Shown here: positions 14,839-56,100 of the stretch, piece after piece | How the letters are laid out: each line of letters opens with the position of its first letter | Position numbering within the stretch: position 1 is the first letter of the stretch | Source of the DNA: Hexactinellida sp. DTS-2022 | Lineage: Eukaryota > Porifera > Hexactinellida | Reading direction: 5' to 3' | Assembly (NCBI GenBank): GCA_028753945.1 | Contig: JAPNXP010000006.1 | Location: 3,720,001-3,784,000, forward strand | DNA: 64,000 nt | The notes under the pieces: model-generated | Database searches by the model: none | Seen by the model: the letters and a program-made list of their open reading frames with translations, nothing else | What the model was told of the DNA's origin: nothing | Position numbers and translations under genes: made by a program

Positions 14839-14847
14839 TATATAAAG
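14839..14847 (+). promoter_or_regulatory. TATA box of ABCG 3
   Basis: TATATAAAG within the block ctcgggtatataaagtaga, conserved at the same place before ABCG 4 while nearby sequence has diverged. It lies 36 bp before the shared MAEKLL start. A start site about 30 bp downstream would leave out the upstream ATG at 14856, which is also absent from the paralogue. Confidence 0.55.
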
Positions 14848-14882
14848 TAGAAATAATGTTAAAGACAAAACTCGTATTAAAA

Positions 14883-27911: not shown

Positions 27912-28056
27912 ATAATCGTTAGTACGAACGCAGGTAATATTAAATTCCGGTTAATACGCAGACTTTCCCAATTCCTTTAAAGCCTGTTAGTACGATTTCG
28001 GATAAGGCGAATAATTTATATGTTCCTCTGGTGTTCGTACTAACGAGAGTCGACTG
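27912..28056. mobile_element. P1-family MITE
   Basis: CGTTAGTACGAACG at the left and GTTCGTACTAACGAGAGTCG at the right, with internal ttccggttaatacg and gatttcggataaggcgaa motifs. The left end is worn. Confidence 0.7.
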
Positions 28057-28072
28057 TAGTTCGCATATTTAT

Positions 28073-28195
28073 AGAGGATACCGGTTATAACACCATATTA
28101 TGGAAACGGTTCTATTTATTAGTGATGGAAAAGTATCGGTAATAAAGACATATTTGATCTACTTCCATCCATGTTCTTATAACCGGTATGCACTG
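28073..28195. mobile_element. P3-family MITE
   Basis: Left GATACCGGTTATAA and right TTATAACCGGTATGCACTG, with cggtaataaagacat in the interior. Confidence 0.7.
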
Positions 28196-28295
28196 TAAAA
28201 ATTTTCTCCAAAAAAGCAAAGTGGGAAAGTATGCAAAACTTAATTTGAACAACAACGAACCAGATAGTGTTAATAATTATTTAACAATGCAAGTA

Positions 28296-28469
28296 CAGTA
28301 GAACCTTATTAGTACGAACACAGTTAATACGAACACTATTTCAGTCCCTACAAAGTATTTTCAATACAAATAATATCGGTTATATAAGTTATTAATTAAT
28401 TAATACGAACTCCGGATAGGCGAACGCATTTTGACGATCCCTGTTGTTCGTACTAACGAGATTCTACTA
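28296..28469. mobile_element. P1-family MITE, full-length
   Basis: TA-flanked. CAGTAGAACCTTATTAGTAC at the left and GTACTAACGAGATTCTACTA at the right. Interior holds the core TTAATACGAAC in repeated, alternating orientation. Confidence 0.8.
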
Positions 28470-28772
28470 TAATATGCGCAAAACAGGTGTCAAATTGGAG
28501 TGGAATTTGGAATCCATTTAAGGCTTCCGATTCGAAAACACAAAGCTGTTTAAGTAAATTTCGCAAATGAGGATACTGACTTAACACTTTCTCATTTATT
28601 ATTTAACTTTAATCCTTGTCTCCCCAAAAGAAATATTAACAATAAGTATTATTATTATAAATAAAACAACTGTAACCTAAGGAACTACAATGTCTGAGAT
28701 TGAAAAGTGGTGAGATGATTGTTGAACCAGATAATGAATAAGAGCTACAAATAATATATTTGCGTTGAATTA

Positions 28773-29172
28773 CTATAAGGAATATGAGAGTATTGGAGCA
28801 AGCCAAGTCTCAATAGAAGCTAAATCTTCACCTTTTCTAATAGAATAATCTACAACTTGTTCCTTAGTTACCTTACCAACAGAAAAGTATGTAGCTTTAG
28901 GATTTGCAAAGTATAAACCTGAAACAGATGCAGCAGGTATCATAGCTAAACTCTCAGTCAATTTGACACCAATCATAGATGCAACATCCATGGTTCGCCA
29001 CATAGTAGATTTCTCAGTGTGATCAGGTTGTGTCGGATAGCCAGGTGCAGGCCGTATGCCATGGTAACGTACCCTATGGAGGTCTTGGGGCTGTAGATCT
29101 TCATCTGGAGAATAACCCCAGAATTCTTTTCGAACGCGTGCGTGAAGTTCTTCTGCAAAAGCTTCGGCCAAC
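28773..29172 (-). CDS. MTR: MTR last exon (reactivation domain, stop codon)
   Basis: 134 codons including TAG at 28775-28773. Acceptor ACCATAG precedes G|TTGGCCGAAGC. Joining the split codon AG|G from 55859 restores [15 protein letters not shown], the exact family sequence across this point. The exon carries [19 protein letters not shown], the S-adenosylmethionine-binding motif, then [16 protein letters not shown] and the C-terminal [13 protein letters not shown] ends 28 bp upstream of the acceptor. Confidence 0.94.
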
Positions 29173-32100
29173 CTATGGTATAAATATATTATGTGCAAGG
29201 CAGTGTGTTATACAGCTATTTGTAAATACGCTCCTAATCCTGGTTTGATCCAATTTTAATACGCCTAATCACACATTAATGTTACGGTATAGGAGAGGAT
29301 TTCAAATTTTCGCGCTCCTAAGTTAAAATTTTCCAAAAATCATGCTCCAAAAGGAGCATCTCGCGCTCCTGGATAATTCCTTGGTGCAAGTTGAAAATAA
29401 TTATTGGTTGTAGCATAGAGTCAGTCAGTTACAATCACCCAATATTTCTTCAAAGGTCAACAAAATCTATACAATGTATACAAAAGCTGTGAAGTGAGAG
29501 GTGCTAAGTGTTCAGAAATAATAATAAATAGATATTCATAATTTCATATATTCATTTCGCCCCAAAATCGTTAATTGGGGTCGAAAGTATCAATTCGCCG
29601 CTTCCTAAAACAAATTATCCCGGCCCAGTAACTCTCTCTCAAAATTTTGGAATGGAAGCCCTTGATCAATAGTATGTAATTATTAAATTATGCAAACAAA
29701 AAGTGTTAAAAACCAATAATAGCTTAAATATATATACATACTTTACCAATTTATAACCCACTAATAATGCTATACAAGACACAAAAACAAAATACATTTC
29801 ACTAAATATTCACAGAATTTCAATAGTGAATTAATTCTCAAGCAGAGCTTGCGGTTGATACTCGATATACCATGCACCTTCTCGCAAATGATGAAAATGC
29901 ACCAATGAGGGCAACCTAAGTCTGTGTATATGATAACCAATCCTCAAAACTCTGTCTACCAAATCCCAATCCTCTCCACCCCATTTCTCACCGAATTCAA
30001 CACTCATTCCACCTATTGCATCCCAATCAGATTTAAACATTGAAACTAAACCATAACCAAATACTTCCCACATCCCTGGACCATCAAATGCTATAACTCC
30101 ACAGTTCAATCTTCTCAACAGTGGAGTGTACACTGTAATTCCTTGAGTTGTATGCTTCCGAATCGAATCTATCATGTTGATAGGAATATTCAGCTGCAAA
30201 TCACATGTGAATATTATGTCATTCGGGTTAAGGACGCTGGATATTGCCATGTTTTGACCTCGTACCTTATTGAAAGGTCCGTCCATTGGAATGTACTTGT
30301 AATGTCTCAGCTTGAGAGTATGCTTCATGAGTTGGTCTACGTTCAAATCTTTGCTATTGAAATCCACAATGATTACACCGAATTGTCCGTCATTAGTTTG
30401 TTCGTAGATTTTGTTTACATTTTCGATAAAATAGCGTATCCATCTCCTCTGATCTTTGACTATAATTACAATGTGGACAAATGCTGTAAGATTTGGTGCT
30501 ATCTTTGGACTACAAAAAGAACCATTTTCAACATGTATGGTCTGAAAAAGCATGTAACTTTGTCTTGGAGAATAATTCAATCTCACTTTCCCTTCCAGTA
30601 TATATTTACTTTCCCTTACGTAACTTACACTTTTCTCTAAATTAAGTAGAGTGAAATCTTTAAATTTATAATCATTATTTTGAATTGTGAATAAAAAGCT
30701 TTTTACCAAATCTCTTGCTTCTTCATTATTCATAGGAGGTGCCCCGTACAATACGGATTGATCAGCACTACTATTAGGTAGGAATACTTCGTCCTCGAAA
30801 AGGGACCATAATCCAGCATATGTTTCAATTTCCTTTGGATAAAGCTGATAAGTAATATTGTTACATTCAGGGAAAATAGTTGGATATAAGTCGAGTGGTA
30901 GAGGGTTTAATAATGGAATTTTTTCTCTTGGATCATTCATAGGATTAGTGTCGTATTGTGTGAAATGTGACTTCAAATGTTTGAATTTTCCAACTATGTT
31001 AATAGGATAATGTCCTAGAAATCTCTGATCAATAATTCCATAGTATTTATCTTCAGGTCCACGCCAGTATATAGTTAATCCATCAATACCTTCTGAAGAT
31101 AGGTACAGAATCTCAATGCTATATGGTACACCTGATTCAAGGAATAAAATACTCGATTCTTGGAAAACGAGTGGTACTTCTATATTCAAACTACTGTCAG
31201 TTTTCGCGATCAATTTCATTTCTTTCTGTGATTTTCCGGAGGATAACCAGAGCTCTGAATCGCTTATATTATTAGTGGCGATCTTAAATTGATATTGACC
31301 TGTTGAATCTGGTACAAGAAACCCGAATATTCTCAAACCAAATGAAGTGAAGTTGTATTGGATGTTTAGAGAGAAAGCGCTCGTTTGTCGGTCAGGGTAA
31401 AGTGGAAATCCTGGATACGCTTTTAACATTGCTAACTGAGATGTACAAACTTCCATCCAGATATATACAGATAAGCCATTTGATTTGATAGGTGTATCGT
31501 CTTCAATTTGAGAAATTACATTTTGAGATTGTATTTGTTCTTTGGTGAATTTAATTACAACTACTTCAGTATGTAAGTAATCAATATTGGTCAAGACATT
31601 CTCAATTATTTCAATATTTGAAAACCTGTAAAAAAAAGGCTTCACACATAAAAGAAGAACCTCAATCCCAAAGAGAATGAAAAGTAAAACAGTAAACTTT
31701 CTCAATAAAATACGATGCTTCATTGAATTCGCTTGAATTGAAAGCATACTGTCTTCATTATATAGAATAGGTTGTGTGGAGATTATATTACGCCTAATGA
31801 TTAATTAATGCATTAATTAATGATATTCTGAAATGAGTAAATGATAAGATTAAGTTAATAAGCTCTAAGCAGAGGTTCAGTGGCAGATCCCAATAATTTT
31901 AGAGAAAATATTAATAATTTATTACTCGTGAACATCGATAACTGGAAATATACTATAGTGGACTCTTGTCAATACGAACACGGTTATGGCGAAATATCGG
32001 TTATAGCGAAAAGGTATAAATCCCATATGGCCTATACAAATGCATTTAAATGACTCCAGTTAATACGAATTTCGGATAAACGAATAAATTTTGTGTCGAA

Positions 32101-35100
32101 ATTTGTTCGTTTATCCGAAATTCGTAATAACCGGAGTAATTTAAATGCATTTATATAGGCTAGAGGAATTAAATCTTGTTCGTATTAACGAGAGTCGACT
32201 CTACTTATATACAGTCAACTCTGGTTTAACAGAGTGCTCGGTATCTGTAAATTCCTCAGTTATATCCGGAAATTCGAATGTTATAAGCGGATAACAATTC
32301 ATGTATTTAGTGCTCTGTTTGGAAAATCTCCATTTCGTTATAAGCGGGTATTTGGTTATAAATCCGACTTCGAAATAATGGGAGTTCACTATAGTATTTC
32401 AGCATATTATATTACTTAAAAAAAAAACCCTTATAGACGGGATGGGAGTGTGCTTCTTCTGGTTGCACAGGCCGCACCCAATGTTTGATTTAAATATAAA
32501 TTCAATATTCAAATTAAATTTCATCTTAATTTAATATAATTTAATTAAAGTTTGAATTGTAAAGATTTCAAATCTTTAGTTAATAAAGTAAGATTAAAAC
32601 TGTTACAAATAGAAATAGGAATAAGTGAAGTATATACTTTACTATTTTGAATAAGAGAATTGACAATCAACTGTAAAATGTTCCAAGTGTTTAATTTGTA
32701 TGAAACACATCACTTACAACCAATCAAATAACAGTCATTATCGAGCAGCATAGGCTTACGTTATATGTTCTATAGATATATTATAAAGTAATTACAATAT
32801 GGAGAAGATGGCTGATTACGTAAAAACGGTTAATAAACCGTAGAATTAGTTAGTGACCTAGTCATTTTAATTGATATATAGAGAGAACATCCTTAGGAGA
32901 ATACAATCTCTATGTTTTCAATTGCTAATTCGAATTATCAAAGAGTCACTAGACCAGAATACAAATTTCGATATAACTGACGAACAAAGACAAAATTGAG
33001 AATTCGGGCAATGAGGTGATCATCTCCAGGAAATTCTCTATTCCCTGTCTAAATTTGAAATCTCTACCACCAATGGTTTAGTTAGGCCATCGCGTACGGC
33101 CGGAACTCCACCAGAGCGATTTAATAATGTGCACTTATAGTATAAAACTAGAGTAGAACAACTGTTGTATCGTATTTTGAGGCGCTATCGTATATTGAGG
33201 CGCTGTATGATACACAAATATAAACCATGGATATGCTATTACAAATTATACTGTGGTATTTTGAGGCGCTCTGGTAGATTGAGACGCTACTATAAATGTG
33301 TTTTCATATCATTTTGCATTATATAATGAACTCTAGACTCTGTATAAGTGAACCATGGATGCGCTATAAAAATTATATTGTAGTATTTTGAGGCGCGTAG
33401 TAAACAATTTTCCATTTCGAGAATTCAGTTAATTTAATGTAAAATTAATTAGTTATCTTAAATTTGCGACTAACTACGATAAATTACCTCGTAAAATGAT
33501 ATGAAATCACATTTATAGTAGCGTCTCAATCTACTAGAGCGCCTCAAAATACCACAGTATAATTTGTAATAGCATATCCATGGTTTATATTAGTGTATCA
33601 TACAGCGCCTCAATATACGATAGCGCCTCAAAATACGATACAACAGTTCTACTAAATTTAGTGTAACATAGTATGAATAAATTGTTAATTGTGCCAGTTG
33701 TAGAAAAGTGGACCACAATTTTGAATTCTACGCACCTATATTACCCTAGATTACAAGATTGCCCTTGTGCAGTATGCCTTTGGGCGCTTTCGGTTCTCCT
33801 TAATTATATATACCGGACTAGTTTAATCTTTGGTTATACATAGACACAATTTACCCTTATACTATATTGCTACTAATCGGACTAGATATTCATGATAAGT
33901 ACAAATAATTAGCTAATGATGATGATAAACCAGAATTATATCAATCAAAAATGTATAGTACAGTAGAACCTCGTTAGTACGAACACATTTAATACGAATT
34001 TCCGGATAAGACGAACAAACAGATCCACAAAATCAAGTCCCTACAATGGCTATTGAATGGGTATTACTCCGGTTAATACGAAATCCGGATAAAGCGAACA
34101 AAATTTTTACCGTCCGTTGGTGTTCGTATTAACGAGGTTCCACTGTATGTTATATTTCTTAACCTTATAGAGGGTCATAAAAGGATACAATCACAGGAGC
34201 ATAGCATGGCTCTGGAATGTCTCCGATAAAACAGTTGAAAGTAGTCCGGCCAAAACTGGACCCTCTTATATAATATAGTTACAGCCAGGCAATTAAAGTT
34301 TCACGAACGAACTATTTGAAATAGAACTGAATTAACTGAAAGCAGGAGTTTTATGGCATTTAGCTGAACGAACTGAATTAACTAAACTGAATATCGATAA
34401 ATTAGAATACTGAATCATTAATCCATACGTAGAATATAAATAAATCACTAGGAAAGTAAATATAAAGAGATTCTACTCATACCTGTTTGTCATACCAAAT
34501 AAGCACCACAAACTCATCTGAACTGAACGAACGAACGAACGAATAAACGAACAAACGAACAAACGAACAAAAACTGGTCCAGCCATGGACGGCCATCCAT
34601 GAGCCCAAGGATTGACAGCGATATGTCGGATGACATTGACAAATTTTTTTTTAAATATCTGAAAAGTATCGGATATTTCGATATTTAAAAAAATACCGAG
34701 ATATTTATCGATATCGGTAATTTCCGGATACATCGATATTTGAAAAACATTGGGCCGCACATTATCTTCTTAATCAATAAGATGCAACACACACCCTACA
34801 CCTTATACACTGCCCGGCCCTGTATGATAAGACAATTAAAGAATTAAGAAAGTCAGACTATGATACATAACTTCAAACATAACATGTAATTACATAATTC
34901 AAACAAAAAAATGTTAGGTGTCACAAAAAATATTATGTTTAAAATAACAATATGACCATATACCTAGCTATTCAATAGGTCGTGAAATATGGATACAAGC
35001 ATTCTAAAAATTAGTAAAAGCAATTATTAAAACTGTATTAGGCACCAACATACCATGCACCTTCTTTCAAATGGTAATAATGTACCAATGCAGGCAGTCT

Positions 35101-38100
35101 AAGTCTGTGTATATGATAGCCAATCCTCAAAACTCTGTCTACCAAATCCCAATCCTCTCCACCCCATTTCTCACCGAATTCAACACTCATTCCACCTATT
35201 GCATCCCAATCAGATTTAAACATTGAAACTAAACCATAACCGATACCTTCCCACATCCCTGGACCATCAAATGCTATAACTCCACAGTCCAATCGTTTTA
35301 ATAGTGGAGTGTACACTGAAATGCCTTGAGTTGTATGCTTCCGAATCGAGTCTATCATGTTGATAGGGATATTTAGCTGCAAATCACATGTGAATATTAT
35401 GTCATTCGGGTTAAGGACGCTGGATATTGCCATGTTTTGACCTCGTACCTTATTGAAAGGTCCGTCCATTGGAATGTACTTGTAATGTCTCAATTTGAGA
35501 GTATGATTCATGAGTTGATCTACGAATCAAATCTTCACTATTGAAATCCACAATGATGACACCGAATTGTTCGTCATTAGTTTGTTCGTAAATTTTGTTA
35601 ACATCTTCGAGAAAGTAACTTATCCACCTCCTCAGATCTTTGACTATTATGACGATGTGCACAAATGCAGTCATATTGCGTGTTATATTTGGAATGCAAA
35701 CGGTTCCATTTTCAACATGTATGTTCTGAGAAAGTAAGAAAGTTTCATTCGGCGATGTATCCAATGTAACTATTCCCTCCAACAAATATTGATCTTCCCT
35801 CACTTCACTAAAACTTTTTTCAAGATTAATCGGAGTGAAATCTTTAATTTTTTCAGAGTCATTTTTTATAAAGGAATTAAACGATTGCAATATATTAATG
35901 ACCTCTTCGTTATTCATAGCTGGAGCCTCGTAAAGAGGTTGCTCGTCAACGTTTGGAGAGAGAATTATCTCGGTTTCATGTACATGCCATATTCCATTCA
36001 TTGCTACAATTTCATTTGGTGTGAGTTGATCTGTATCTTGAGAGCAATTGGGAATTATAGGGTACATTTCCGAAGGTAAAGGATTTAGCAATGGAAACTT
36101 TTCCCTGGGGTCTTTCAACATATTTTTTTGGAATTGCGTTTCATGTGCAGGCAAGTTTTGTAGATTATCTAATTCATTTGATGGAAAATGTGCCAGAAAT
36201 AGTTGGGTGATTTCTTCATAATCATTTCCATTTGGTGTATGCCAGGACACACTTAAGGAAGCCATTTTTATGGAAGAGGCAGTTATAATTTCGATATAAT
36301 AGGGTTCATTAGCTTGAAGGGTAATCAAATCTGATGGGGTGTCAGTTTTCGTGATAAATTTCATATTTTTCGGGTCAACGTCTGTAGATAACCAGATCTC
36401 TGAATTCTGAGCATCAATTTTAAATTGATAATTCCCAAATGTATCTGGAATGATATAACCAAATATCCTTAAACCAAATGATTCATCGTCAAGTTGGATA
36501 TTTAGAGAATTTATACTAGATTCAATATCTGGATATAAAGGAAATCCAGGAAAGGCTTTCAATTGGTCAAGTTGATCGATACATAGCCCCTTCCACGTAT
36601 AAATAGATAAGCCATCCCTAATTGTCAAATTTAGTTTAGGAGTTTTCACATTGAGGCTGGTAAAGATTTCAGGTACTGTATGTTCAAAACTGCTATTTGA
36701 TTCTACAATTTGAGAACTCGATATATCAGCATTGGAAATAATATTTTCTGGGAAAAACTCATCATAAGTATTGTAATAATATATGACAAGCTCAATTCCA
36801 GAGATTAGGAACAAGAGGTAAACTAATTTTCTCCAACGAGTCCAATATTTCATTGAAATAAGACTGATTAATCCAAAAATTATATGTGATGTGCATATAT
36901 ATATACACGTAGTATGGTGGGATCACTCAAAAGCTTCTAGGCTTATCTATTATCTGTAATAAATCAGGCGAGTATAATTATCGTAATAATTTTATTGAAA
37001 TACAATGCATGTTGTAATTATAGTAAATTGATACTGTGTGACCACTCTTAGTCCTTACATACTAAGGAATAATATATAGCAATGAACTACTAAATTCTAC
37101 ATATTAGCAAATCCATTTTCAAAAGATTATCTAAGACCCAATTATAAAATTCCAGCGTGCAACGAACAGCTGTAAAATTGATACAACTGAACAAAATGAA
37201 TGGAATTGCTGATAGGGAAATTTAAGAGCCTAACACATCCACTGGGTTAATGTAATTGTATACTGTGTATAGCATACGATTAAATTCCTGATATGTACAA
37301 GTATTGATAAAAGGCTTACTGTAATATAAATTTCATCAGAACATATTGTCATATAGTGAAATAAACTTTAATATATATTAATTATTTAATTCGTATTTAT
37401 GGATGAATTGAATTAGCAAAAATGACATAAAATGATGTTTATTACTTTTGATTTGATTGTGATTAAAAGTCAAATGAGAGTATACGTATATTATTTTAGA
37501 ACTAATAGGATAGTATAGCATAATTACATAATGGATCGTGAATTAATACAAGTGCATTGTATGGTAAAACCTGAGCGTTTATTATTAATATTCAACCATA
37601 AATTCATGTTGAAATTGAATTGATCACACACATGCTTGAATTTCATGTCTGACAGAAGCCTATAAAAACTAGACCAATAACAAACTAATAAAGTTTAATA
37701 AAGTCTTTAAATAATAGGAAATTCTTGGTATAGATGTTTCAGGTCACGTCGTAGAAAATTTGTATTTCAATCTAAGGGATTTTCAGACACTTTTATAACA
37801 CTACTCGGCAAGAAGTGTCTTAAGTGAAACCCGGGCTTTTGCCTAGGCAAAGTGTCTTAAAAAGTCCTTAGTTCTAAGGGGCAGTCCAAAATGCCACATA
37901 ATGTAAATTACAGGAAAGTTAAGCACCCCCTCTTTATGTCACGCTTTTATAAATAAAATGGATTGTGTGTCGCACATTAGTTGACCACCCCTCCCCCTTG
38001 GATGTGTACGCAATGTTTGAACGGCCCTTAGGGTCAGGTTGATATTAGTGCGAAATAATACAGTCAAATTCGCTTAAATAGGACGGTCAACAGGAAATCT

Positions 38101-41100
38101 AGACAAAATATCAAACATGATTGTTCCAACTACTCAGAACCAACCACGGGAGGCAGAAAATATGAAAATTTCCAGGGGAAATTGGCCACCCCAGGGACCA
38201 TCGTAACGTGTCCAAATTAAACGGAGTTGACTGAATTATTATTCTTTACGGTACCACCGATATTGTTAACGAATTAACTGATAATAAGCGGTGTAGCTTT
38301 GTAGGAAGATGAAATCGAAAAGCATTTACAAGAAACTTTTAATTTTTACAGTGATACTATTGATATTTGGAGTGCTCCGTGAAAGTATAAAGAGTGCGGG
38401 TAACAGAGAAGTGTCAGCTGAAATAGAAAACATTTATATAACCTCAATACGAAAACAGTTCCCTGATTTTAAATTAAAGAAACAAAATGTAAATGGATTA
38501 ACAGTATATATGTGGAGAGAAGTATGGACCAACAGCATGGAACATTTTAAAGCAAGCCCCGGTTTTCCTTTGTTTCCAGATATAAATTATGTCACAAATG
38601 ATCTTCGGATAAGAATCCAAAAACAAGCGATTGGTGTGAGAATTTTCGGTTATATTTTACCATACAAAACTGATAAATTTCAGTTTAAAATAGAGGCAAA
38701 CGATGCACAAACCACAGAGGTTTGGTTGTCACCTGATCAAAACCCGAACAATATGACACGAATGGAAAGAGATATGACTAATGTAAATATAAGTAAAGAA
38801 TTTTCTACATATGAAACAACTAAAATTGCCTTAACCAAAAAGAAAATGTACTATATAGAAATTGTACATGCTACTTATAAGGTGACTGAAAACATAACTA
38901 TTTACTGGCGTGTAAATAGAGGCTATGAGATAATAGAAAAAGAGCACTTATTCCAATACCCGACTGATATAATTGGAAATCCGAAAAAGTTACCCTCACA
39001 TTTCACTTCGCTCCAAACAAAGAGAACTACAGACCCAAGGGAACAAATTCCATTTCTACAACCTCTGCTACAGGAAATTGTTTCAGACGTATTTCCAAAT
39101 TGTTCGAGTCAAGCACCACAACTAAAACCACAATATGTATCTCACTTTGAAGGAACTGGAATGGTAAAAGAAATACAAGTATTTATATCTAATTCAGGCA
39201 TAGACAATCCTAATCTACTATTAGAAGGCCCAGCACTTGACGAAGAAGAAGCAACTCGAATAGAACAGTCATTCTTTTCACATTTTCAAAAGAAATCTAG
39301 AGCAATAACCAAATTTGAATTGTTAAATCTTGAAAAAATTGAAAGCGAAGTAATAGGGAATTATTATTTACTTGAAGCTAAAGTATCAATACATAATACA
39401 CCCTTGAAAAAATTCCTGTTATCTCAAATGATTCAAACTGAAGGGGAAACATTCTGTCTGTCCACGGCCATACCAAATGAGGTCGCATTCATTCACATAG
39501 TCGTAATAGTGCATAATCAGAGTAGATGGCTACAACACTTCATTGATAACATAAACAAAATATATGAACAAACTAACGATCAACTTTTCAGTGTGATCAT
39601 AGTCGATTTCAACAGTAAAGACTTGGATACGATCAGTGTTGTGAAGCGCTCTCTCAAAATAAAGTTTGAGTACATTTATATTGAATCTGCCGATTTCAAC
39701 AAAGTTATGGGACAACATATAGCATTACAGAGGGTCATCGATCGAAACGACATCATATTCCATTGTGATTTACACCTGAATCTCCCTATAGTTATACTAG
39801 ATGCTATTAGAAAACACACACTACAAGGTTATGCTGTGTTCTCACCAATGGTAAAGAGGTTAGAAGGAGGTAGTGTATTTCTAGATGGCAATGGTTGGTG
39901 GGATACACTTGGTTATCGATTAGTTTCTATGTACAAAACAGATTGGCTTGTTATCGGTGGGATGAACAAAGAATACGGGTTCAAATGGGGCAGAGAAGAT
40001 TTAGATTTGGTTGACAGATTGTTTACAGTTGGGTATCATATAAATAGGCTTAGATTGCCTGGATTGATACACTATCATCACCCGAGAGATGGAAAATGGT
40101 ACCATGCTGATTAACTGTTCTCCTATTTATTGTTACGTATTATTCTCTCTGTAAATTTGGTAGAATTAAGCCTTGGAGAAATAATCATAAGTTTTTTCAT
40201 ATTTTAGTGAAAAAGATACATTCTAGTAGAGAGTTCGGAAGGATTGGACTCCAAATCCAATTCACGAATATATAAATGAAATGGATTTAAAATTCGTAAT
40301 AACAGTAATACCTTTAGAAAGTGAACACTCTGGGGACCAGCCAAAATGCTCATTTACGAGATGTGTTCACTTTTCCTGATATATCCTAATGTGTGTCGTA
40401 AAGCAATGGAAAAATTTGGGACCAAAAAAAAGTGTTCCTGATTTGGAGTTGTTCATTTCTTGAAGGTGTTCACTTTTGGAAGTTTTAATGTACGTATATG
40501 AATATCAAAGAACTTCAATAGTCCATCCAAAATTCATTACAGTAGATTCTACCATGGCCTACTATAATACGGCAATACATGCTGCCGAATCATAGTAGAA
40601 AATAAGTGTCCAGTTTTGTAATATTATTCTAAGCTAAATTATGCTTCCTATAGCTATTGGCATAATTTGCATTGTACATGGGTAATCAACAATTGCGAGT
40701 CCAATGGAACCACTTTTGAGAATCTGAGATTTGTGGTTAAGCTGTTTAGGCGCCATTTAACGATGACATCACAAATATACAAATTATACAATTCGAGTCT
40801 GAAGAACTACGAGAAAATGTGGACAATTTGCTAATATAATTAGTATACATTTTCCGAATATATAATGAGAATGAATATATATAAACCAGTAATTAAATAA
40901 GGTGTATGGCCGAAAATAGTAAGTTGTAACTTTGATACAACTTGTATTTTAGCATGTGGTTGCTTTAGAATTTTTTAGAATTTTTAGAATGTCACCATTT
41001 TGTGATTTACTAGCCTTTGGAGTGGGAAATAAATCCCTATTTAGTATTCCTGTTATAAAATTGTTAGGAAGTAGGAAAAAAATTAAATTTATGATATTTG

Positions 41101-44100
41101 AATTTTTTTCATTCTACCATAAAATGTTACCGTCATCATGAAATGCATTTAAATGGCTCCTAAACAGTTTAACCACAAATCTCAGTCTCTCAAAACTGGT
41201 TCCATAGGACTCGCAATGGTTGATTACCCCATATACATTGCAAATTATGCCAATAGAAAACATAGTTTAGTTTAGAATAAAATTACAAAACTGGACTCTT
41301 ATTTTCTACTATGATTCGGCAGCACGTATAGCTGTATTATATTGCCATGTTTGTAGTAAGCCAGGAAAATAGTTATAGCAAATCAAAACTGGTTCGGAAA
41401 TCGACAGCCATCCATGGCTCCAAGGATTGAAATCGATATATCGGGACAGCAAAAATCGGAATATCGGAAAAATTTTGGATATTTCGACATTTTTTAAAAT
41501 ACAGAAAAAAATATTTATCGATATCGGTGATTTCCCGGATACATCGATATTTGTAAAACAATGGGCCGCACATTATCTTCTTAATCAATAAGATGCAACA
41601 CACACCCTACACCTTATACACTGCCCTGTATTATAAGACAATTAAAGAAATAAGAAAGTCAAACGATGATACACAACCTCAAACATAACATGTAATTACA
41701 TAATTCAAACAAAAAATGTTAGGTGTCACAAAAAATATTGTGTATAAAATAACAATATGACCATATACCTAGCTATTCAATAGGTCGTGAAATATGGATA
41801 CAAGGATTCTAAAAATTAGTAAAGCAATTATTAAAACTGTATTAGGCACCAACATACCATGCACCTTCTTTCAAATGGTAATAATGTACCAATGCGGGCA
41901 ACCTAAGTCTGTGTATATGATAGCCAATCCTCAAAACTCTGTCTACCAAATCCCAATCCTCTCCACCCCATTTCTCACCGAATTCAACACTCATTCCGCC
42001 TATTGCATCCCAATCAGATTTAAACATTGAAACTAAACCATAACCGACACCTTCCCACATCCCTGCACCATCAAATGCTACAACTCCACAGTCCAATCTT
42101 CTCAACAGTGGAGTGTACACTGAAATGCCTTGAGTTGTATGCTTCCGAATCGAGTCTATCATGTTGATAGGAATATTCAGCTGCAAATCACATGTGAATA
42201 TTATGTCATTCGGGTTAAGGACGCTGGATATTGCCATGTTTTGACCTCGTACCTTATTGAAAGGTCCGTCCATTGGAATGCACTTGTAATGTCTCAATTT
42301 GAGAGTATGATTCAAGAGTTGATCTACGTTCAAATCTTTGCTATTGAAATCCACAATGATGACACCGAATTGTTCGTCATTAGTTTGTTCGTAAATTTTG
42401 TTAACATTTTCGAGAAAGTAACTTATCCATCTCCTCAGATTTTTTACTATTATGACAATGTGCACAAATGCAGTCAGATTGCGTGTTATATTTGGAATGC
42501 AAACGGTTCCATTTTCAACATGTATGTTCTGAGAAAGCAAGAAGGTTTCATTAGGCGATGTATCCAATGTAACTATTCCCTCCAACAAATATTGATCTTC
42601 TCTCACTTCACTAAAACTTTTTTCAAGATTAATCGGAGTGAAATCTTTAATTTTTTCAGAATCATTCTCAATAAAGGAATTAAACGATTGCAATATATTA
42701 ATGACCTCTTCGTTATTCATAGCTGGAGCCTCGTAAAGAGGATGCTCGTCAATGTTTGGAGAGAGAATTATCTCGGTTTCATGTACATGCTGTACTCCCT
42801 CCAATGCTACAATTTCATTTGGTGTGAGTTGATCTGTATCTTGAGAGCAGTCGGGAATGATAGGGTACATTTCCGAAGGTAAAGGATTTAGCAATGGAAA
42901 CTTTTCCCTGGGATCTTTCAACATATTTTGTTGAAACTGCGTTTCATGGGCGGGCAAGTTTTGTAGATTATCTAATTCATTTGATGGAAAATGTGCCAGA
43001 AATAGTTGGGTGATCTCTTCATAATCATTTCCATTTGGTGTATGCCAGGACACACTTAAGGAAGCCATTTTTATGGAAGAGGCAGTTATAATTTCGATAT
43101 AATAGGGTTCATTAGCTTGAAGGGTAATCAAATCTGATGGGGTGTCAGTTTTCGTGATAAATTTCATATTTTTCGGGTCAACGTCTGTAGATAACCAGAT
43201 CTCTGAATTCTGAGCATCAATCTTGAATTGATAATTCCCAAATGTATCTGGAATGATATAACCAAATATCCTTAAACCAAATGATTCATCGTCAAGTTGG
43301 ATATTTAGAGAATTTATACTAGATTCAATATCTGGGTAGAAAGGAAATCCTGGAAAGGCTTTCAATTGGTCAAGTTGATCGATACATAGCCCCTTCCACG
43401 TGTAAATAGATAAGCCATCTCTGATTGTCAAATTTAGAATAGGATTTTCTACATTGAGGGTTGTAAATTTTTGAGGTACTGGTTTTTGAAAACTGTTATT
43501 TGATTCTACAATTTGGGAACTCGATTTATCAGTATTGGAAATAAGATTTTCTGGGGAAAAATCACCATAAGTATTGTAATAATATATGACAAGCTCAACT
43601 CCAGAGATTAGGACGAAGAGGTAAACTAATTTTCTCCAACGAGTCCAATATTTCATTGAAATAAGACTGATTAATCCAAAAATTATATATGATATGTATA
43701 TATATACACGTAGTATGGTGGGATCACTCAAAAACTTCTAGGCTTATCTATTATCTGTAATAATTAAGGCGAGTATAATTATCGTAATAATTTTATTGAC
43801 ATACAAAGCATGTGGTAATTATAGTAAATTGATACTGTGTGACCACTCCTTAGTCCTTACATACTAAGGAATAATTACAATCAATCACTAAATTCTACAT
43901 ATCAGCAAATCCATTCTTCAAAAGATTATCTAAGACCCAATCATAAAATTCCAATGGTAAAGCAGAAGCGAGGTGGTAAGTCTTAGTGAAAGATGTTAAA
44001 ACTTCTGTAGCAAATTGTCTGGACATTATGCATATTGCTAGACATTATGTAAATTGCCCAACGAAGGAGACATCTTGCAAAATGCCTAAAGAGTTTGCAA

Positions 44101-47100
44101 ATTGCTACAAAAACCAGCATTACGCGTATTGCCTGGGCATTATGCAAAACGCCCAATTTCTCATATTGCCCATAACATAGCTACTACAATTAAATAGAAA
44201 AAGCTCGAATTATGGATTCGACTAACCTGTAGGGTGACGTTGGGTCGCAATTCTGTTGGAAATGTGAAGTCAGACAATGTGCATACAATTGGATACGTCT
44301 AATTACCGCAACTTTATCTACTCTTATCTACCCATAATATTAATTTCTATATAATATAGAAAACCCCATTACTAGCATATAATTCTAAGTGGCTAAGAAG
44401 TAAAACTAGATTTATGGGTGGGTAGAGGTGGGTTAACTTATTGTCTGGCTTCACCTTTCTAATAGAATTGCGACCCTACGTTACGTTACTTTCTCCCAAT
44501 TGAGGTAAAAGCGAGGAAGGCGAGCAGTGGATTGTATTAGGTGAAAGTGACAAGGTAGAAGGATGGTTTGATTTGATAAATGGAAGGTTTAAGAAAATTA
44601 GGGTTTGTTTTTGTCGAATAATACTAGTATTTTAGCATGTGGTTGCTTTATAATTATTTAAAAAAATTAGAATGTCCCCATTTTGTGATTTACTAGCCTT
44701 TGGAGTGTGAAATATATTGTTATTTAGTATTCCTGTATAAAATTATTAGAAAGTAGCAAGAGAATGAAATTTATGATATTTGAAAAAAATTCTTTCTACC
44801 ATAAATTGTTACCGTCACCATGAAATGGCGCCTAAACAGCTTAACCACAAATCTCAGATTCTCAAAAGTGGTTCCATTGGGCTCGCGATGGTTGATTACC
44901 CCATATACAATGCAAATAATAACAATAGGAGGCATAGTTTAGCATAGAATGAAAATTAGAAACTAGCCATCTCGTTTCAGGGCCTTCTAGGTGACATATT
45001 TAGCCGTGTATTAAGTAAGCCATGCTGAGACAAAATTTTCAAAGGTGTCAACGTGGTATTTTAAAAATGATTTATCAAAAATACGTAATAATTGTAAGCC
45101 GGCATCAAAATTTTACACGGCCAACGACTAACGGATACATTTTCGATGTCATCTTGGATTTTTAAAATTGCGGCTCTCTAATTTATCGCCGATATTTCCC
45201 CAAAGCGAACTTTTCAAAATTATTATGGTCAACTTTTAAGGAGCAAATTCGTTGTCACATGAAATCCCCGTCGTTTAAGGGGTCACTTGCCATAGTTTAT
45301 CCATAGTAACGCGATATTTCTAAATGATGATAACTTGAAAGGAAATTGTCGTAAAATAGCGTCAAATTACGATTTAGAGTGTCACTATGTTTATAACTAG
45401 ACTCAGATAGCTGAAGGGAGTCGAACAAGAGGTCACTCGATAGGTTAGGACAAAATTCGTGAATGGAATGTTGTAACACTCATAAGAATTAAGAAAGTCA
45501 GATCATGATAACTTAATCATAACATAATTCAAACAATAAAATGTTAAGTGTCACACAAAATACTGTGTTTATACTAATATGACCATATACCTAGCTATTC
45601 AATATATGTCTTGCAATATTACATGCATTATACAACTTAGTAAAAAGAAATTATTAATACTGTATTAGGTACCAACATACCATGCACCTTCTCTCAAATG
45701 GTAATAATGTACCAATGCAGGCAGTCTAAGTCTATGCAGATGATAACCAATCCTCAAAACTCTGTCTAACAAATCCGAATCTTCTCCACCCCACTTCTCA
45801 CCGAATTCAACACTCATTCCACCTATTGCATCCCAATCAGATTTAAACATTGAAACTAAACCAAAACCAAATACTTCCCACATCCCTGGACCATCAAATG
45901 ATAAAATTCCACAGTTCAATCTTCTCAACAGTGGAGTGTACACTGAAATTCCTTGAGTTGTATGCTTCCGAATAGAATCTATCATGTTGATAGGAATATT
46001 CAGCTGCAAATCACATGTGAATATTATGTCATTCGGGTTAAGGACGCTGGATATTGCCATGTTTTGACCTCGTACCTTATTGAAAGGTCCGTCCATTGGA
46101 ATGTACTTGTAATGTCTCAACTTGAGAGTATGCTTCATGAGTTGATCTACGTTCAAATCTTCACTACTGAAATCCACAATGATGACACCGAATTGTTCGT
46201 CATTAGTTCGTTCGTAAATTTTGTTAACATTTTCGAGAAAGTAACTTATCCACCTCCTCAAATCTTTGACTATTATGACGATGTGAACAAATGCAGTCAG
46301 ATTGCGTGTTATCTTTGGAATACAAACCGTCCCATTTTCAACATGTATGTTCTGAGAAAGTAAGAAAGTTTCATTAGGCAATTTATGCAATGTAACTATT
46401 CCCTCCAACAAATACTGATCTTCCCTCACTTCACTAAAACTTTTTTCAAGATTAATCGGAGTGAAATCTTTAATTTTTTCAGAATCATTTTCAATAAAGG
46501 AATTAAACGATTGCAATATATTAATGACCTCTTCGTTATTCATAGCTGGAGCCTCGTAAAGAGGATGCTCGTCACTGTTTGGAGAGAGAATTATCTCTGT
46601 TTCATGTACATGCAATATTCCATTCATTGCTACAATTTCATTTGGTGTGAGTTGATCTGTATCTTGAGAGCAATTGGGAATTATAGGGTACATTTCCGAA
46701 GGTAAAGGATTTAGCAATGGAAACTTTTCCCTGGGGTCTTTCAACATATTTTGTTGGAACTGCGTTTCATGGGCGGGCAAGTTTTGTAGATTATCTAATT
46801 CATTTGATGGAAAATGTGCCAGAAATAGTTGGGTGATTTCTTCATATTCATTTCCATTTGGTGTATGCCAGGACACACTTAAGGAAGCCATTTTTATGGA
46901 AGAGGCAGTTATAATTTCGATATAATAGGGTTCATTAGCTTGAAGGGTAATCAAATCTGATGGGGTGTCAGTTTTCGTGATAAATTTCATATTTTTCGGG
47001 TCAACGTCTGTAGATAACCAGATCTCTGAATTCTGAGCATCAATCTTGAATTGATAATTCCCAAATGTATCTGGAATGATATAACCAAATATCCTTAAAC

Positions 47101-50100
47101 CAAATGATTCATCGTCAAGTTGGATATTTAGAGAATTGATACTAGATTCAATATCTGGATATAAAGGAAATCCAGGAAAGGCTTTCAATTGGTCAAGTTG
47201 ATCGATACATAGCCCCTTCCAAGTGTAAATAGATAAGCCATCCCTGATTGTCAAATTTAGTTTAGGAGTTTTCACATTGAGGCTGGTAAAAATTTCAGGT
47301 ACTGTATGTTCAAAACTGCTATTTGATTCTACAATTTGAGAACTCGATATATCAGTAGTGGAAATAATAATTTCTGGGTAAAAATCATCATATGTATTGT
47401 AATAATATGTTACAAGCTCAACTACAGAGATTAGGATGAAGATGCAAACTAATTTCCTCCAACGAGTCGGATATTTCATTGAAACTATATTGAGATTTAA
47501 TTCCAAAATTGGATATAAAATATGTATTTATAGTAAGGTGGAATTGCTCTAAAACTTATATGCTTCTTATGTTCTGTAATAATTCTGTCGAGTCTTGAAC
47601 TACGTAATTACTTAATTGCACATACAAGCCTAAGGGTAATCATATTAAAATGATACTGTGTCCACTCCTTAATGCTTACATACTAAGACGTAATCTACGT
47701 AGAAAAATCACTCATTAAAATTCTACATATCAGCAAATCCTTCAAAAGATTATTCTAAGACCCAAACATAAAATTCCGATGGTAAAGCAGAAGCGAGGTT
47801 GTAAGTCTTAGTGAAAGATGTTAAAAAAACTTATGTAGCGTGGAACGAACAGATATAAATTGATACAACTGAACAAAATGAATGAAATTGCTCATAGGGA
47901 AATTTAAGAGTCTAACACATCCAGCTAAATTTATTGTACACTATAGACACTGATATACAATACAATAAAATTCACCTGGGTGAATGTAATTGTATACCAT
48001 ATCAGTGTATAGTATCCGATTAAATTCCAGATATGTACAAGTATTGATAAAGATTTACTGTAATATAGATTTCACCACTACAATAGTGTGATGTGAAATA
48101 AACAATATTATATTAATTCGTACTTAGAATGAATTGAATTAGTAAAATGATACCAAAATGGCTTATTGCCTTTGAGTAAAAGTCAAATGAACCAAATAGG
48201 AATAGTATAGCATAATCGTGGGTCCAGAATCATTACAAGTGCATTGTGTGGTTAAAAACCTGATGGTTTATTGTAAATATTCTAAGCATAAATTCATGTT
48301 GAATTCAACTGATCATGATCACGTGCTTGCCTTGTCTGACAGAATCCTATTAAAACTACTAATAACTAACTAATTAAGTTTTGCTTTGAATAATAGGAAA
48401 TTCTTAGTTATAAATGTTTCAGGTTTGTCACTCGTAGAAATATGTCTTTCGATAAAAAGGTCTTTCAGACACAATTCTGCAAGAGTGTCTCAAGTGAAAA
48501 CCCGGGCTTTTGTCTAGGCAAAGTGTCTTAAAAAGTCCTTAGGTCTAAGGGGCCGTTTCAAATGCCACGTAATGCAAAATTACAGGAAAATTAAGCACCC
48601 CCCTCCTTATGTCACGCTTTTTTAAATAAAATGGATTGCGTGTCGCACATCAGAACCAGCCCTCCCCTTGGAAGTGTACGTAACGTTTGTTCGGCCCTTA
48701 AGGACAGTTTTATATTAGTGTGAAATTAATACAGTCAAATTCGCTTAAATAGGACAACAGGAAATCTAGACAAAATATCAAAACATGATTTGTTCCAATA
48801 TAAAATAAGATTTTAATTACAAGCTACTCAGAACCAAACACGGGTGGCAGAAAATATGAAAATTTCCAGGGTAAATATGCCACCCCAGGGACCAACATAA
48901 CGTGTCCAAATTAAACGGAGTTGACTGTATAATTATTGATTACGGTACCACCGATATTGTTAACAAATTAGCTGATAAATAAGCGGTGCAGCTTTGTAGG
49001 AAGATGAAATCGAAAAGCATTTACAAGAAACTTTTATTAATTACTGTGATACTATTGATCTTTGGAGTGCTCAGTCAAATATTAAAGAGTGTGGGTAACA
49101 GAGAAGTGTCAGCTGAAATAGAAAACATTTATATAACCTCAATACAAAAACAGTTCCCAGATTTTAATTTAAAGAAACCAAATGTAAATGGGTTAACAAT
49201 ATATGTGTGGAGAGAAGTATGGACCAACAATATGGAACATTTCAAAGCAAGCCCCGGTTTTCCTTTGTTTCCAGATATAAATTATGTCACAAGTGATCTT
49301 CGGATAAAAATCCATAATCAAGCGATTGGTGTGAGAATTTTCGGTTATATTTTACCCTACAAAACTGATAAATTTCAGTTTAAAATAGAGGCAAACGATG
49401 CACAAACCAGAGGTTTGGTTGTCACCTGATCAAAACCCGAACAATATGACACGAATGGAAAGAGATATGACTAATGTAAATATACATAACGAATTTTCTA
49501 TATACGAAACAATTAAAATTGCCTTAACCAAAAAGAAATTGCACTATATAGAAATTGTACATGCTACTTATAAGGTGACTGACAACATAACTATTTACTG
49601 GCGTGTAAATAGAGGCTATGTGATAATAGAAAAAGAGCACATTTTTCAATACCCAACTGATATAATTGGAAATCCGAAAAAGTTACCCTCACATTACACT
49701 TCGCTCCAAACAAAGAGAACTACAGACCCAAGGGAACAAATTCCAATGCTACAACCTCTGCTACAGGAAATTGTTTCAGACGTATTTCTAAATTGTTCGA
49801 GAAAAGCACCCCAACTAAAACCACAATATGTATCTCACTTTGAAGGAACTGGAATGGTAAAAGAAATACAAGTATTTATATCTAATTCAGGCATAGACAA
49901 TCCTAATCTACTATTAGAAGGCCCAGCACTTGACGAAGAAGAAGCAACTCGAATAGAACAGTCATTCTTTTCACATTTTAAAAATAAATCTAGAGCAATA
50001 ACTAAATTTGAACTGTTAAATCTTGAAAAAATTGACAGTGAAGTAATAGGGAATTATTATTTACTTGAAGCTAAAGTATCAATACATAATACACCCTTGA

Positions 50101-53100
50101 AAAAATTCCTATTATCCCAAATGATTCAAACTGAAGGGGAAACATTCTGTCTGTCCACGGCCATACCAAATGAGGTCGCATTCATTCACATAGTCGTAAT
50201 AGTGCATAATCAGAGTAGATGGCTACAACACTTCATCGATAACATAAACAAAATATATGAACAAACTAACGATCAACTTTTCAGTGTGATCATAGTCGAT
50301 TTCAACAGTAAAGACTTGGATACGATCAGTGTTGTGAAGCGCTCTCTCAAAATAAAGTTTGAGTACATTTATATTGAATCTGCCGATTTCAACAAAGTTA
50401 TGGGACAACATATAGCATTAGAGAGGGTCATCGGTCGAAACGACATCATATTCCATTGTGATCTACACATGAATCTCCCCATAGTTATACTAGATGCTAT
50501 TAGAAAACACACACTACAAGGTTATGCTGTGTTCTCACCAATGGTAAAGAGGTTAGAAGGAGGTAGTGTATTTCTAGATGGCAATGGTTGGTGGGATACA
50601 CTTGGTTATCGATTAGTTTCTATGTACAAAACAGATTGGCTTGTTATCGGTGGGATGAACAAAGAATACGGGTTCAAATGGGGCAGAGAAGATTTAGATT
50701 TGGTTGACAGATTGTTTACAGTTGGGTATCATATAAATAGGCTTAGATTGCCTGGATTGATACACTATCATTACCCGAGTGATGGAAAATGGTTCCATTC
50801 TGATTAACTGTTCTCCTATTTATTGTTACGTGTTATTCTCTCTGTAAATTTGGTAGAATTAAGCCTTGGAGAAATAAAAATATGTCTGTTAATTTTTTTT
50901 TACTTTTGGAAGTTTTCACTGTATATGAATATCTAAGAACATTTCATAGTCCATCCAAAAATTCATTACAGTAGATTCTAGTTAATATGAATACTATTAG
51001 GAGACCGTCAAAATTTGTTCTTATTAGTCGGAAATTCGAATAATGGAGTAAAGTGTACTCTCGTTATAAACGAAGTGCTTGGGACCTGTAAATTCCTTCG
51101 TTATAAGCGGAAAATAATTAATGAATTTAGTGCTCTGGGAGAAAATCTCCATTTCGTTATATCCGACTTAATTATAACGGGAGTTCACTGTACTTTAATG
51201 CGTTTGTATAGGCGAAGGGAATTAAACTTTGTACTATTTAAAAACATTTCGCCTTATCCTTGTTGGGATAAATTCACGAAAGTCTACTGTATTATGATTT
51301 CTGAATTAGACCTAAAGCCCCTGCCGTCTATGGGTAATACAAATGTATGTGTAAGAAAACCTGGTCTAGATATAAGTTATTTCTTTTCACTGAGAATAGC
51401 CCAGCCACTTGTGTACTTTAGAGTTTAATTAAATTCGAATTCTCCTAGCCTAAATTTCAGAAGAATTTCCAAATTCAACTCCGACCAATTTAGTAATATT
51501 ATTATTATATATATTAATATTGATATATTATATTACAGGTTTGTTTTTAAGGTTGAGACCTTGATGTAACTCAGCAGAGACCTTGGTGTGTAACTCAGCA
51601 GAGACCTTGGTGTAACTCAACACTGTAGCGGCCGCTGCCGACCCGAATCGTGGTGTAACTCCCATAAATATTGGTGAAAATTTTACACCAAGATCGGCCT
51701 TAAAAAACCCTGTTCTATTATATTATAGTTCCTTTTTTTGCGACACGGTTAACCGAGACAACCCAACGTCTCTCACTTGAATCTGGGTCAGTATATTAAT
51801 AATCCTTTCGAGACCACTGTTCATCCTTGCAACCGAGTACGCGAAGAATAGTTAGAATATTTTTGTCCCAATTATCGTATTGCTTCGAATAAGCGCCCAG
51901 TGCTTATTGTTTTCGTGGGCCAATTTATCCTGAATTTTTTTTGAAAAATCTGAAAATAATATTTTGGTGTGTTTTAATGGTTTTCATCGACAGTATACAT
52001 ATCGTAGTTGCCAAAATCAATGAAATTACATTTCAGTACCAACAAATGTGTCTAAATTTGATCATACAAATGCTATTTTTATTGACCCGGCGCTTTTTCG
52101 AAGCAAAACGTCAGTGGGTTATTTCGGTCAGGCGAATATATTTAGTTCATTTTCTACCATGGATAATATAATTAGTGCTGAGACTTTACTATGCATTTGT
52201 CAATTGGGGTATCTCGTTGCACTATATATATATATATAGGCACAGGTATAATTTAATGGTATTATTATATCTGTATATTGTATGTTCCAATTGAGCAAAT
52301 TCAGGTACAAATAGTTGTGTATTAACTCTATTAATAAGCCCAGATTATAGCTAGTTGTCCAGACAATAACTATATACGTATGTGAGCAAAGTTTCATCCA
52401 GTCGAGTAAATTTGGATTTGTTCTTTCTAGGAGCACAGGATTTGAAATACTTTCTATAAATGTAATACAAAATCATCATTTTATGTTTCCAAAATTCAGG
52501 CGCTACGGCCTACGGATATTAGTGCGCTCATTTCTAAGTGGGACTATCGTAATGAGACAAAAAGACCTCAAGCTTTTCAGAATAAATTCTTCTGAAAATG
52601 TGACAAAAAACTGATAAATAAGATTGGAACGGAATATTGACAAATGGGAAATTAATTTGGATTTTTATTTGGGCTTGAATTATTCGTAATTTGTTAAATA
52701 GGTTTGTTAATTAAATATAATGAGATCCTGATAATAATTCAGACCCTACGAATGACCAGACAACAAAACCTGGCTAATGAAACCTTGTATATGCAGAATA
52801 TACATTTATATATGGTATAAACTGGAATTTGATTGGTTTAATGGGGATTTATTGAAGAAAATTGAAATTAGCGCAGATAAAAATATTACTAAAACTAAAT
52901 TATATTCGAATAGTGTGTCGACTCAAGTTTGGATAAGAAACACACAAAGTTTAATCAAATCTATTAAAATATTTTTGATAGAAAACTATAGTTGTTAGCG
53001 ATTAAAATGTGATTGAAAATAACCTGTTTGAATTGAGCCTAGTTTATAATCCTAATATTCTATAGGTAGTGATGTTAAAATATTTGAATTTTCAAAGAAG

Positions 53101-56100
53101 ATTTCAGACAAAAATGAGATATAAACGAATCGTCAAATTGTTATCCATCTTAATTCTCTTTCTAATAGGAACAATGTTCCTACACCAAAGTTGGAAAGTA
53201 AGTATTCTTGGAAGCGAATTGTTCCCTTCTGACAATAGATTACATTGGGATAGCAGCCTACCAGATATCGAGCCAGAATTAACACTAAGCGAAGTCATAA
53301 ACTCTATAAAAAGTGGTCTACAGGTCAACTTATGGAATGAAGTGTGTGCAAATCAACTTCATATACTGAAAACAACGCCTGGATTTCCAATGTTCCCGGA
53401 TAAAGAATTCATCGCTAATATATTAGATATTCAATTGGGTGTAAGCAAAATAGGTTTGAGAATATTTGGATATATTTTACCGAAAACATCAGGAATGTAT
53501 CAGTTCAAAGTTGAAACGAATAACAGTGGTGAAATCGAAGTTTGGGTTTCTACTAGTCATGTCACGAAAAAATCTGTTCTTGTCAAAAAAGAAATTTCAA
53601 ACGTTAAATCAGATAAAAATTATGAATCGGCCCAGGTATTCTTGGAAAGACAAAATTATTATTACTTAGAGCTACTCTATGTGACAGACGAGATGGTAGA
53701 TAGAATTGTCATTTCGTGGCGATTAAAAGGAAACGAGGATTTTGAAATTCTTACGAATAATTACCTTGCACATTATACAGGTGATAGAGAACAGACATTT
53801 TATAGAAGTCTTGTATTACATAAAGCAAATATGCCATCTACAATAACCAAAGATCCGCGAGAACAAATTCCTTATTTGGAAAGGTTACCATTGGACAAGT
53901 ACGTTGATTTTTTCCCAAAATGTTCTGAAGAATTAAATAAACTCAGACCGAAAGAAGTTGAGAGATTTGAAGGTCGATGGAAGATACAAGAAAGCAAAGT
54001 TTACATAAAAACCTTTTTGCATATCACAGAAAATCTTTACGGAGGGCCTGTTTTGGAAAAACGTGAAGTAGATACTGTGATTAAAAATTTTATTAGAATA
54101 ACAAAACTTGTTGGGAAAACATTTCAAGAATTTAACCTTATAAATATTGAAAAACTTCCAACTGATGGCCCAGAATTAAGTTATTTACTAGAAGCAAGAA
54201 TCAATTTAGTTGGACAGCCAACACAAAACTATTTACTCTCCCAATATATAAATTATGCCGATCTATCCTATTGTCTGCCTACTGTATCACCAAATCCTAC
54301 AGCATTTATAAATATTATTATACCAGTTAAAGACCAGAATAGATGGCTAAGGTATTTTCTGAATAATATAAATGAGATTTATAAACAAACAAACGATCAG
54401 AACTTTGGAGTTACAGTAGTAGATTTCAGCAGTAAAAATATCAACATGTATGAAGAAATTCAGTCAACTTTGTTAATAGAACACTACAATTATATTCAGA
54501 TTCAATCCAAAGATTTTAATAAAGTTGTAGGTATAAACGTGGCTTTTCAAAGCATTTTGAACAGAAATGATATTATATTTACTTGTGACTTGCATCTAGA
54601 GTTACCAATGTATACCTTACATGCTATTAGAACGCATACAATACAAGGACAATCTGTTTTTTCGCCGTTGGTTAAACGACTTGACTGTGGAATTTGGGAT
54701 TTTGAGGGCTCTGGTTGGTGGGATCAACTCGGATATGGGTTGGTTTCAATGTATAAATCAGATTGGTTAGTTATTGGAGACATGAGCAATGAATTCGGTA
54801 TGAGACATGCTGGAGAAGATTGGGATTTGGTAGACAGAGTTATTCGTGCAGGATACCATATGAACAGATACAGAATGCCAGGCTTAGTGCACTATGAACA
54901 CCCGAGAGATGGAAAGTGGTACCATGGATAATAACTCTAATTATTTACGTGATAATTATATTATATTCCATTGTTCACTCTTTGAATGCAGTTTATTGTA
55001 TATTTTATTAGTTTGGAGTGAATGTAATGAGATTTGAAATAAGTTTATCTGTAAACTGTGGAGTTCGCTTAATGGCAACTCGTGTTTGCCACTAAATCTG
55101 GTTGCTAATAGGCGAAGTTGCTAATAGGGGGATGAAATTAACAGTATTATCACGCTTGGGACCCGAAAAGCGGTTGCTAATAGGGGAGTTGCTAATAAAG
55201 CAAACTCCACTGTATTTATATATTTATGATGTAATCAATACAATGAAGGATTACTTATTCAGTGGGAACACATTTTAAATATACAAACCAGGCTTCACAT
55301 AGGTGATTTCTAAAGCAAAAATGACCTTGCCAGTGCCTGACAATACATTAGAAAGGATTGGCCGATAAATGAGCTTAATAATAGGTTCACCTAATCTCTC
55401 ATTGATGTAACCATATCGTTTAAGATATTGTTATTCTCCGGATTGTATTTGTTAAGGCTTGGGTATTAAGGTAGTTGGATTAGTTAAATTAATTTTATCT
55501 ATATCTTACTCATTTCTGTTCATGTAAATTATTAATTTTAGCTTCCAATTGATAACTAATAAGCTTTGAGAATATACAAAGCAAAGAAACAAAAATACAT
55601 TCATTTCCCACTACAGTAGAACCTCGTTAGTACGAACACGGTTAATACGAAATTCCGGTTAATACAAACACTATTTCAGTCCCCTTTCAAAGCCTTACAG
55701 TACAATCATATCGGTTTATACGAATTTCAGAAAAGGCGAATGCATTTTACGGTCCCCTGGTGTTCATACTAACGATGTTCTACTGTATATCGAAGATCCA
55801 AGCATTTATATATAACAGGAATTAACGGTATAAATTAATTACAAACATATATACTTACCTATCTGCTAATGCCTTCACCATAATATCATTATACACATCT
55901 TGCTTAGACAGATATTCAGCACACAACTCTTCTACACCGCCAACCGAAACAACAAACATTCCTACGTAGTCAAGGATACCGGAAGTAATAGGAGCTACGA
56001 AATCCGACAAACAAAGATACGGTTCGTCTAAATCACCAATTTTCTCTTCTTGTTGACGTAATCCGTACAAAGTACCTACTTCAGTTGTGAGGTCTTCAGA

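Follow-up and report, generated by a model that had tools for sequence, protein, structure and literature searches.

In the glass sponge Hexactinellida sp. DTS-2022, two neighbouring coding exons of methionine synthase (MTR) enclose seven single-exon B4GALNT/CHGN-like glycosyltransferase loci, four of them on the MTR strand and three on the opposite strand. We are confident that MTR in the window (the whole 64-kb stretch of DNA analysed) is an intact, single-copy gene and that the PA14-type beta-1,4-GalNAc-transferase-like genes nested in its last intron form an old array, with a founder that most likely expanded in place and copies that were homogenised by conversion.

The host gene runs on the minus strand, and a single 26,686-bp intron (29173-55858), 49% of which is covered by the seven loci, precedes its last exon. 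The penultimate exon (55859-56514, -), which encodes the first part of the activation domain, ends in ...GCAGATAG followed by GTAAGT (donor AG/GTAAGT), while the last exon (28773-29172, -), which encodes the remainder of this domain and the stop, begins with GTTGGCC and is preceded by ...TTTATACCATAG (acceptor TATACCATAG). Joining 56514-55859 to 29172-28773 gives a single open frame with its sole stop at the end, as against 23 and 35 stops in the other two frames, and makes complete the Pfam profile for the C-terminal activation domain of cobalamin-dependent methionine synthase (Met_synt_B12, PF02965), which the two exons split into complementary parts (profile positions 1-159 and 155-273 of 273). 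The last exon is without Met in its first 56 codons, and therefore needs joining to the rest of MTR. Eight further MTR exons lie in the window (56892-63932, -), where the other eight complete introns, by hand measurement, are 1073, 1360, 428, 459, 560, 383, 313 and 377 bp long, and the MTR gene looks complete because its N-terminal exon (MSDPRN...IIDGGMGTMVQ) was found just past the window edge, near coordinate 64,680-64,760. The initial annotation, which had proposed the array within one MTR intron, the exon junction with its correctly split codon, the four-to-three division between strands and the unusual length of the intron (as compared to 313-1360 bp for the others), is borne out on all of these points.

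A second MTR locus, which would make the exon facing the array a fragment, was looked for in this assembly (112.4 Mb, 18 contigs) and was not found by DNA or protein searches: the last exon has one match in its own genome by either method, and the penultimate exon has one by protein search. This bears on the idea that the array was put between the MTR exons by misassembly, which is scarcely credible; near-identical copies and two frameshifts would speak for it, but the window is free of N, both MTR exons are single-copy and the same linkage is seen on three contigs from relatives (see below).

Along the intron, the nested loci are g1 (29831-31804, -) of subtype A, g2 (35038-36922, -) of subtype B, g3 (38297-40114, +) of the plus-strand subtype, g4 (41842-43737, -) and g5 (45665-47527, -), both of subtype B, g6 (48983-50807, +), a near copy of g3, and g7 (53066-54931, +), the most divergent array member. 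What had been described as seven genes is thus better described as seven loci, five with open frames (605-657 aa) and two frameshifted, g2 within 35450-35526 and g6 within 49389-49429, frameshifts that either decay or an error of assembly might explain. Full-length dN/dS values of 0.33 (g4/g5), 0.38 (g1/g4) and 0.61 (g3 versus the longer piece of g6) agree with purifying selection, less strong in the pair that includes a frameshifted locus. A poly(A) signal (AATAAA or ATTAAA) occurs within 400 nt downstream of two of the seven loci (g6 and g7), both opposite to MTR, while the four MTR-strand loci lack one, counts too small for meaning when ~0.7 per 400 nt are expected from the 46 in the intron. 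Acceptor-like motifs (TTTCAG/TTACAG) can be seen by eye, without control, upstream of g1, g2, g4 and g5. Searches for RNA families (at gathering scores) and for tRNAs found none. The intron also contains what may be a small transposable element, a hairpin-like inverted repeat (33154-33654) whose 162-nt arms show 97% complementarity.

The CHGN domain (PF05679) is found in all 18 family members and Glyco_transf_7C in 17 of the 18, while PA14 reaches E<=0.001 in seven. The initial annotation presented the nested genes as carrying PA14 outright, which is too firm for a domain that is marginal in three of the four window genes scanned (20.2-21.2 bits versus a Pfam cut-off of 24) and has no match in the fourth. 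A WGGED-type motif, which we take to be that of the GT7 catalytic domain, is present in three of the five intact genes (g1, g4 and g5), and altered in g3 (KWGREDLDL) and g7 (RHAGEDWDL). Among solved structures, the sole matches of g1 are two chains of chondroitin sulfate synthase 3 (38 bits). In predicted architecture, the nested loci resemble B4GALNT3/B4GALNT4, the human LacdiNAc synthases, type II membrane proteins that combine a PA14 domain with a GalNAc-transferase catalytic domain (PMC11254600). The resemblance is to this description rather than to the human sequences, and PA14 in the window genes is, in contrast, below the Pfam cut-off or unseen. Going by the family, each nested gene would encode a predicted Golgi type II GalNAc transferase.

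A search of the sponge's own genome with g1 returned 21 rows, nine for the seven array loci, eight for open frames elsewhere and four for one fragmentary locus on contig C7, counts that are lower bounds (at least seven loci in the intron, and at least eight open frames plus one fragmentary locus outside). Outside the intron there are at least three open frames on C4, two on C18 and one each on C5, C6 and C7, and no second array of comparable size was seen among these matches. The two on C18 (620004-621692, +, and 622171-623859, -) form an opposite-strand pair, very similar to each other but divergent within this glycosyltransferase family. Trees of 26 rows unite the five intact array genes with 13 relatives (P0001-P0013) in a clade apart from the eight other own-genome members, with support of 100/99 at full length and 98/99 for the same 18 rows in a tree of the N part only. 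These trees used 13 of the 14 matching relatives, leaving out P0014, g2, g6 and the fragmentary locus C7:2784349, and the tool flagged several long branches in them. For C6:4330963 and C4:4883485, which are among the eight loci outside the intron, the match contains one TAG, and only the longest open frame of each was used. Since the array genes belong to one clade apart from the other members, a single founder most likely expanded in place within the MTR intron, judging from the trees.

How the copies arose can be read in part from their flanks. In g3/g6 and in g2/g5, the two copies remain 68-95% identical per 100 nt as far as ~1.4-1.5 kb upstream of the open frame, and these shared flanks show that both pairs come from segmental duplication, while for g2/g4 and g4/g5 flank identity extends only ~200-300 nt upstream. 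Separate retroposition of each copy is not favoured for g3/g6 and g2/g5, since similarity extends so far upstream. The founder, presumably intronless, would most likely have entered the MTR intron before the split between this species and Oopsacas minuta, and would then have multiplied in place to give several subtypes on both strands.

Evidence for the age of this arrangement comes from relatives, since three of their contigs combine the MTR last exon with array-clade genes, same-contig status being judged by equal contig size in bp and meaning linkage, not nesting. A 760,377-bp contig has three array genes of three subtypes (P0003, P0005 and P0011), the last exon (P0019) and a central MTR exon (P0136), a 695,982-bp contig has an array-clade gene (P0007) and the last exon (P0016) and a 422,425-bp contig, equal to 0.7% of the 61.46-Mb O. 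minuta assembly, likewise has an array-clade gene (P0009) and the last exon (P0020), of which P0020 is named O. minuta and the organism of P0009 is deduced from the shared contig. The MTR-array linkage therefore looks old from these contigs, and the nested array is real and, on present evidence, probably old. Array-clade contigs of 2044324, 1312519, 697658 and 805574 bp are without an MTR exon among the best 120 matches of either MTR search, as is that of P0010, which is only 5,244 bp long; contigs of 573107 and 887176 bp have the MTR last exon without an array-clade gene among the matches listed, as does that of P0017, which is only 4,154 bp long; and the central MTR exon is alone, among the matches listed, on contigs of 416092 and 44462 bp. 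Such contigs could reflect missed open frames, breaks within the array or true absence.

Among the best 120 of 4957 matches, the nearest named relative of the MTR last exon is P0020 of O. minuta (80% identity), five ENA proteins have 79-89% identity and the next named animals are fishes (65-67%). P0020, a 158-aa protein annotated as 'Methionine synthase-like', seems to consist of the last MTR exon only, with unrelated residues before RLAEAF, and is likely a split gene model of O. minuta MTR. For the O. minuta annotation, introns of up to 5000 bp were allowed in read mapping (PMC10280926), so that a long MTR intron would split the model and leave the last exon separate. This serves as a warning for annotation, as the last exon of O. 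minuta MTR has apparently been annotated as a gene of its own.

Ordinary cis-splicing of the 26.7-kb intron would make the MTR mRNA, the splice sites being of consensus cis type, on the same strand and in order. It is very unlikely that this mRNA is instead produced by trans-splicing of two separate transcripts, with RNA polymerase never crossing the whole array. That idea draws on the size of the intron (~60-fold the median of the other eight), on the separately annotated last exon in O. minuta and on the spliced-leader trans-splicing reported in the glass sponge Aphrocallistes vastus (PMC10282587), but the split O. minuta model is just what the mapping limit leads one to expect, and the splice sites speak for cis-splicing. 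Host transcription through all seven loci follows only if the MTR mRNA is made by cis-splicing. Each nested gene would be driven by its own promoter, and the array would be retained because it could not easily leave without breaking MTR. How a 26.7-kb intron containing same-strand genes is spliced in a genome of mostly short introns is a question that this locus opens.

Within the array, the catalytic part appears to have evolved differently from the rest. Subtype A (g1, P0001, P0002 and P0003) and subtype B (g2, g4, g5, P0004, P0005 and P0007) are separate clades in the N-part tree (100/100 and 100/99), the subtype trees leaving out P0014 and the short g2 and g6 pieces. Within-species A/B pairs have 41-50% protein identity in the N part but reach 85-93% in the catalytic part: 44% and 90% for g1/g4, 43% and 90% for g1/g5, 46% and 93% for P0001/P0004, 50% and 89% for P0003/P0005, and 41% and 85% for P0002/P0007, which are on two contigs and only presumed to be from one species. 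In DNA, identity of g1 to g2/g4/g5 is 44-71% per 100 nt over the first 1,200 nt, is 76-100% per 30 nt from ~1,320 nt, and drops to 30-34% ~25 nt before the g1 stop codon; the homogenised catalytic part of g1 lies at 29854-30484 (-). This catalytic third, in which subtypes A and B resemble each other next to a divergent N-terminal part, bears what appears to be the mark of gene conversion, the evidence for which consists of synonymous codons in the sponge's own genome and of protein only in the relatives. Conversion would maintain this resemblance in the C-terminal catalytic third and leave the differences in the N-terminal stem/PA14 part in place.

Strong selection on the catalytic part, acting in place of conversion, could be held responsible for this likeness, as the catalytic part is more conserved in the cross-subtype and cross-species pairs compared. 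However, we find this highly improbable, since synonymous codons shift too. For g1/g4, dS falls from 1.58 in the N part to 0.15-0.21 in the C part, and identical codons at same-residue sites rise from 101 of 187 to 149 of 160 (p 3e-17); for g1/g5, they rise from 101 of 192 to 144 of 159, while no such shift is seen in five control pairs that include g3 or g7 (p 0.15-0.9) or in g4/g5. Tree tests agree with conversion in part: N-part data reject the within-species groupings in all four cases tested (p<=5e-6), whereas on the C part it is the subtype A clade that is rejected (p 0.025). In the C-part tree, P0002 and P0007 form a clade (100/99), P0001 and P0004 group weakly (49/86), and the grouping of P0003 with P0005 is neither shown nor rejected (p 0.449). 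A DLQ motif, at a presumably metal-binding position, is common to subtypes A and B except P0005, which has DLH like the remaining clade rows, a distribution that fits spread by conversion.

The array, in which gene conversion is our preferred explanation, is a testable case of a gene family seemingly expanded and homogenised inside a housekeeping intron. One could go further, although we consider it improbable, and picture the intron as a long-lived trap in which an enzyme family evolves by parts, with conversion spreading catalytic changes (such as DLH to DLQ) while the PA14/stem part diversifies, and with host transcription crossing the array so that same-strand guests are co-regulated with MTR, perhaps by spliced-leader release from MTR pre-mRNA, tying methyl metabolism to surface glycans.

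Nested genes have a precedent in dunce/Sgs-4. Other animals already provide examples of families nested in one intron, and it is the domain-limited conversion pattern that sets this array apart; this pattern and the MTR link in relatives are the parts worth following. The initial annotation, which considered a whole family in one intron of a housekeeping gene to be out of the ordinary, overstated its rarity, judging from three papers. In four distant insects, most of the GMC oxidoreductase family is nested in one intron of Flo-2 (>83.2 kb in fly), which is similarly an enzyme family in one large intron of a conserved host gene, but almost all GMC genes are opposite to the host and the enzymes are of another class (PMC1891103), whereas the sponge array is on both strands and its conversion is confined to one domain. 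In the TipE cluster, kept in insects, several family members likewise sit within the last intron of CG18675, a conserved gene unrelated to them, but these are channel subunits and the cluster includes the unrelated VhaM9.7-c (PMC3240667). Closer to home, A. vastus has 2432 annotated nested genes (12.4%) and tandem clusters of single-exon genes, both features of the present array, and its glassin gene, like that of O. minuta, is nested within another gene. For O. minuta, only 83 nested genes were annotated, a number attributed to annotation method in general (PMC10282587). The MTR array is not described in the available text of that paper; nor did it appear in our literature search or in what is accessible of the other glass-sponge genome paper (PMC10280926). 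A literature search combining methionine synthase, nested gene, intron and sponge found no paper, and the only match for glass sponge and N-acetylgalactosaminyltransferase concerns, in the part available, Antarctic demosponge extracts.

The window also holds genes beyond MTR and its guests. A single-exon copine gene (25310-27322, -) lies immediately downstream of MTR, followed by a gene for a ribosomal L22-family protein (23648-24343, -), which we guess to be mitochondrial. Four single-exon ABCG-type half-transporter genes form a loose array (7882-9864, -; 12489-14432, +; 14826-16814, +; 20651-22579, +), of which the first and last were run against Pfam and the last two are near-identical by eye. 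Finally, AT-rich motifs such as 'cgttagtacgaac' and 'ccggttataagaac', likely dispersed repeats, recur by eye in introns and spacers at 27001-30000 and 55601-64000.
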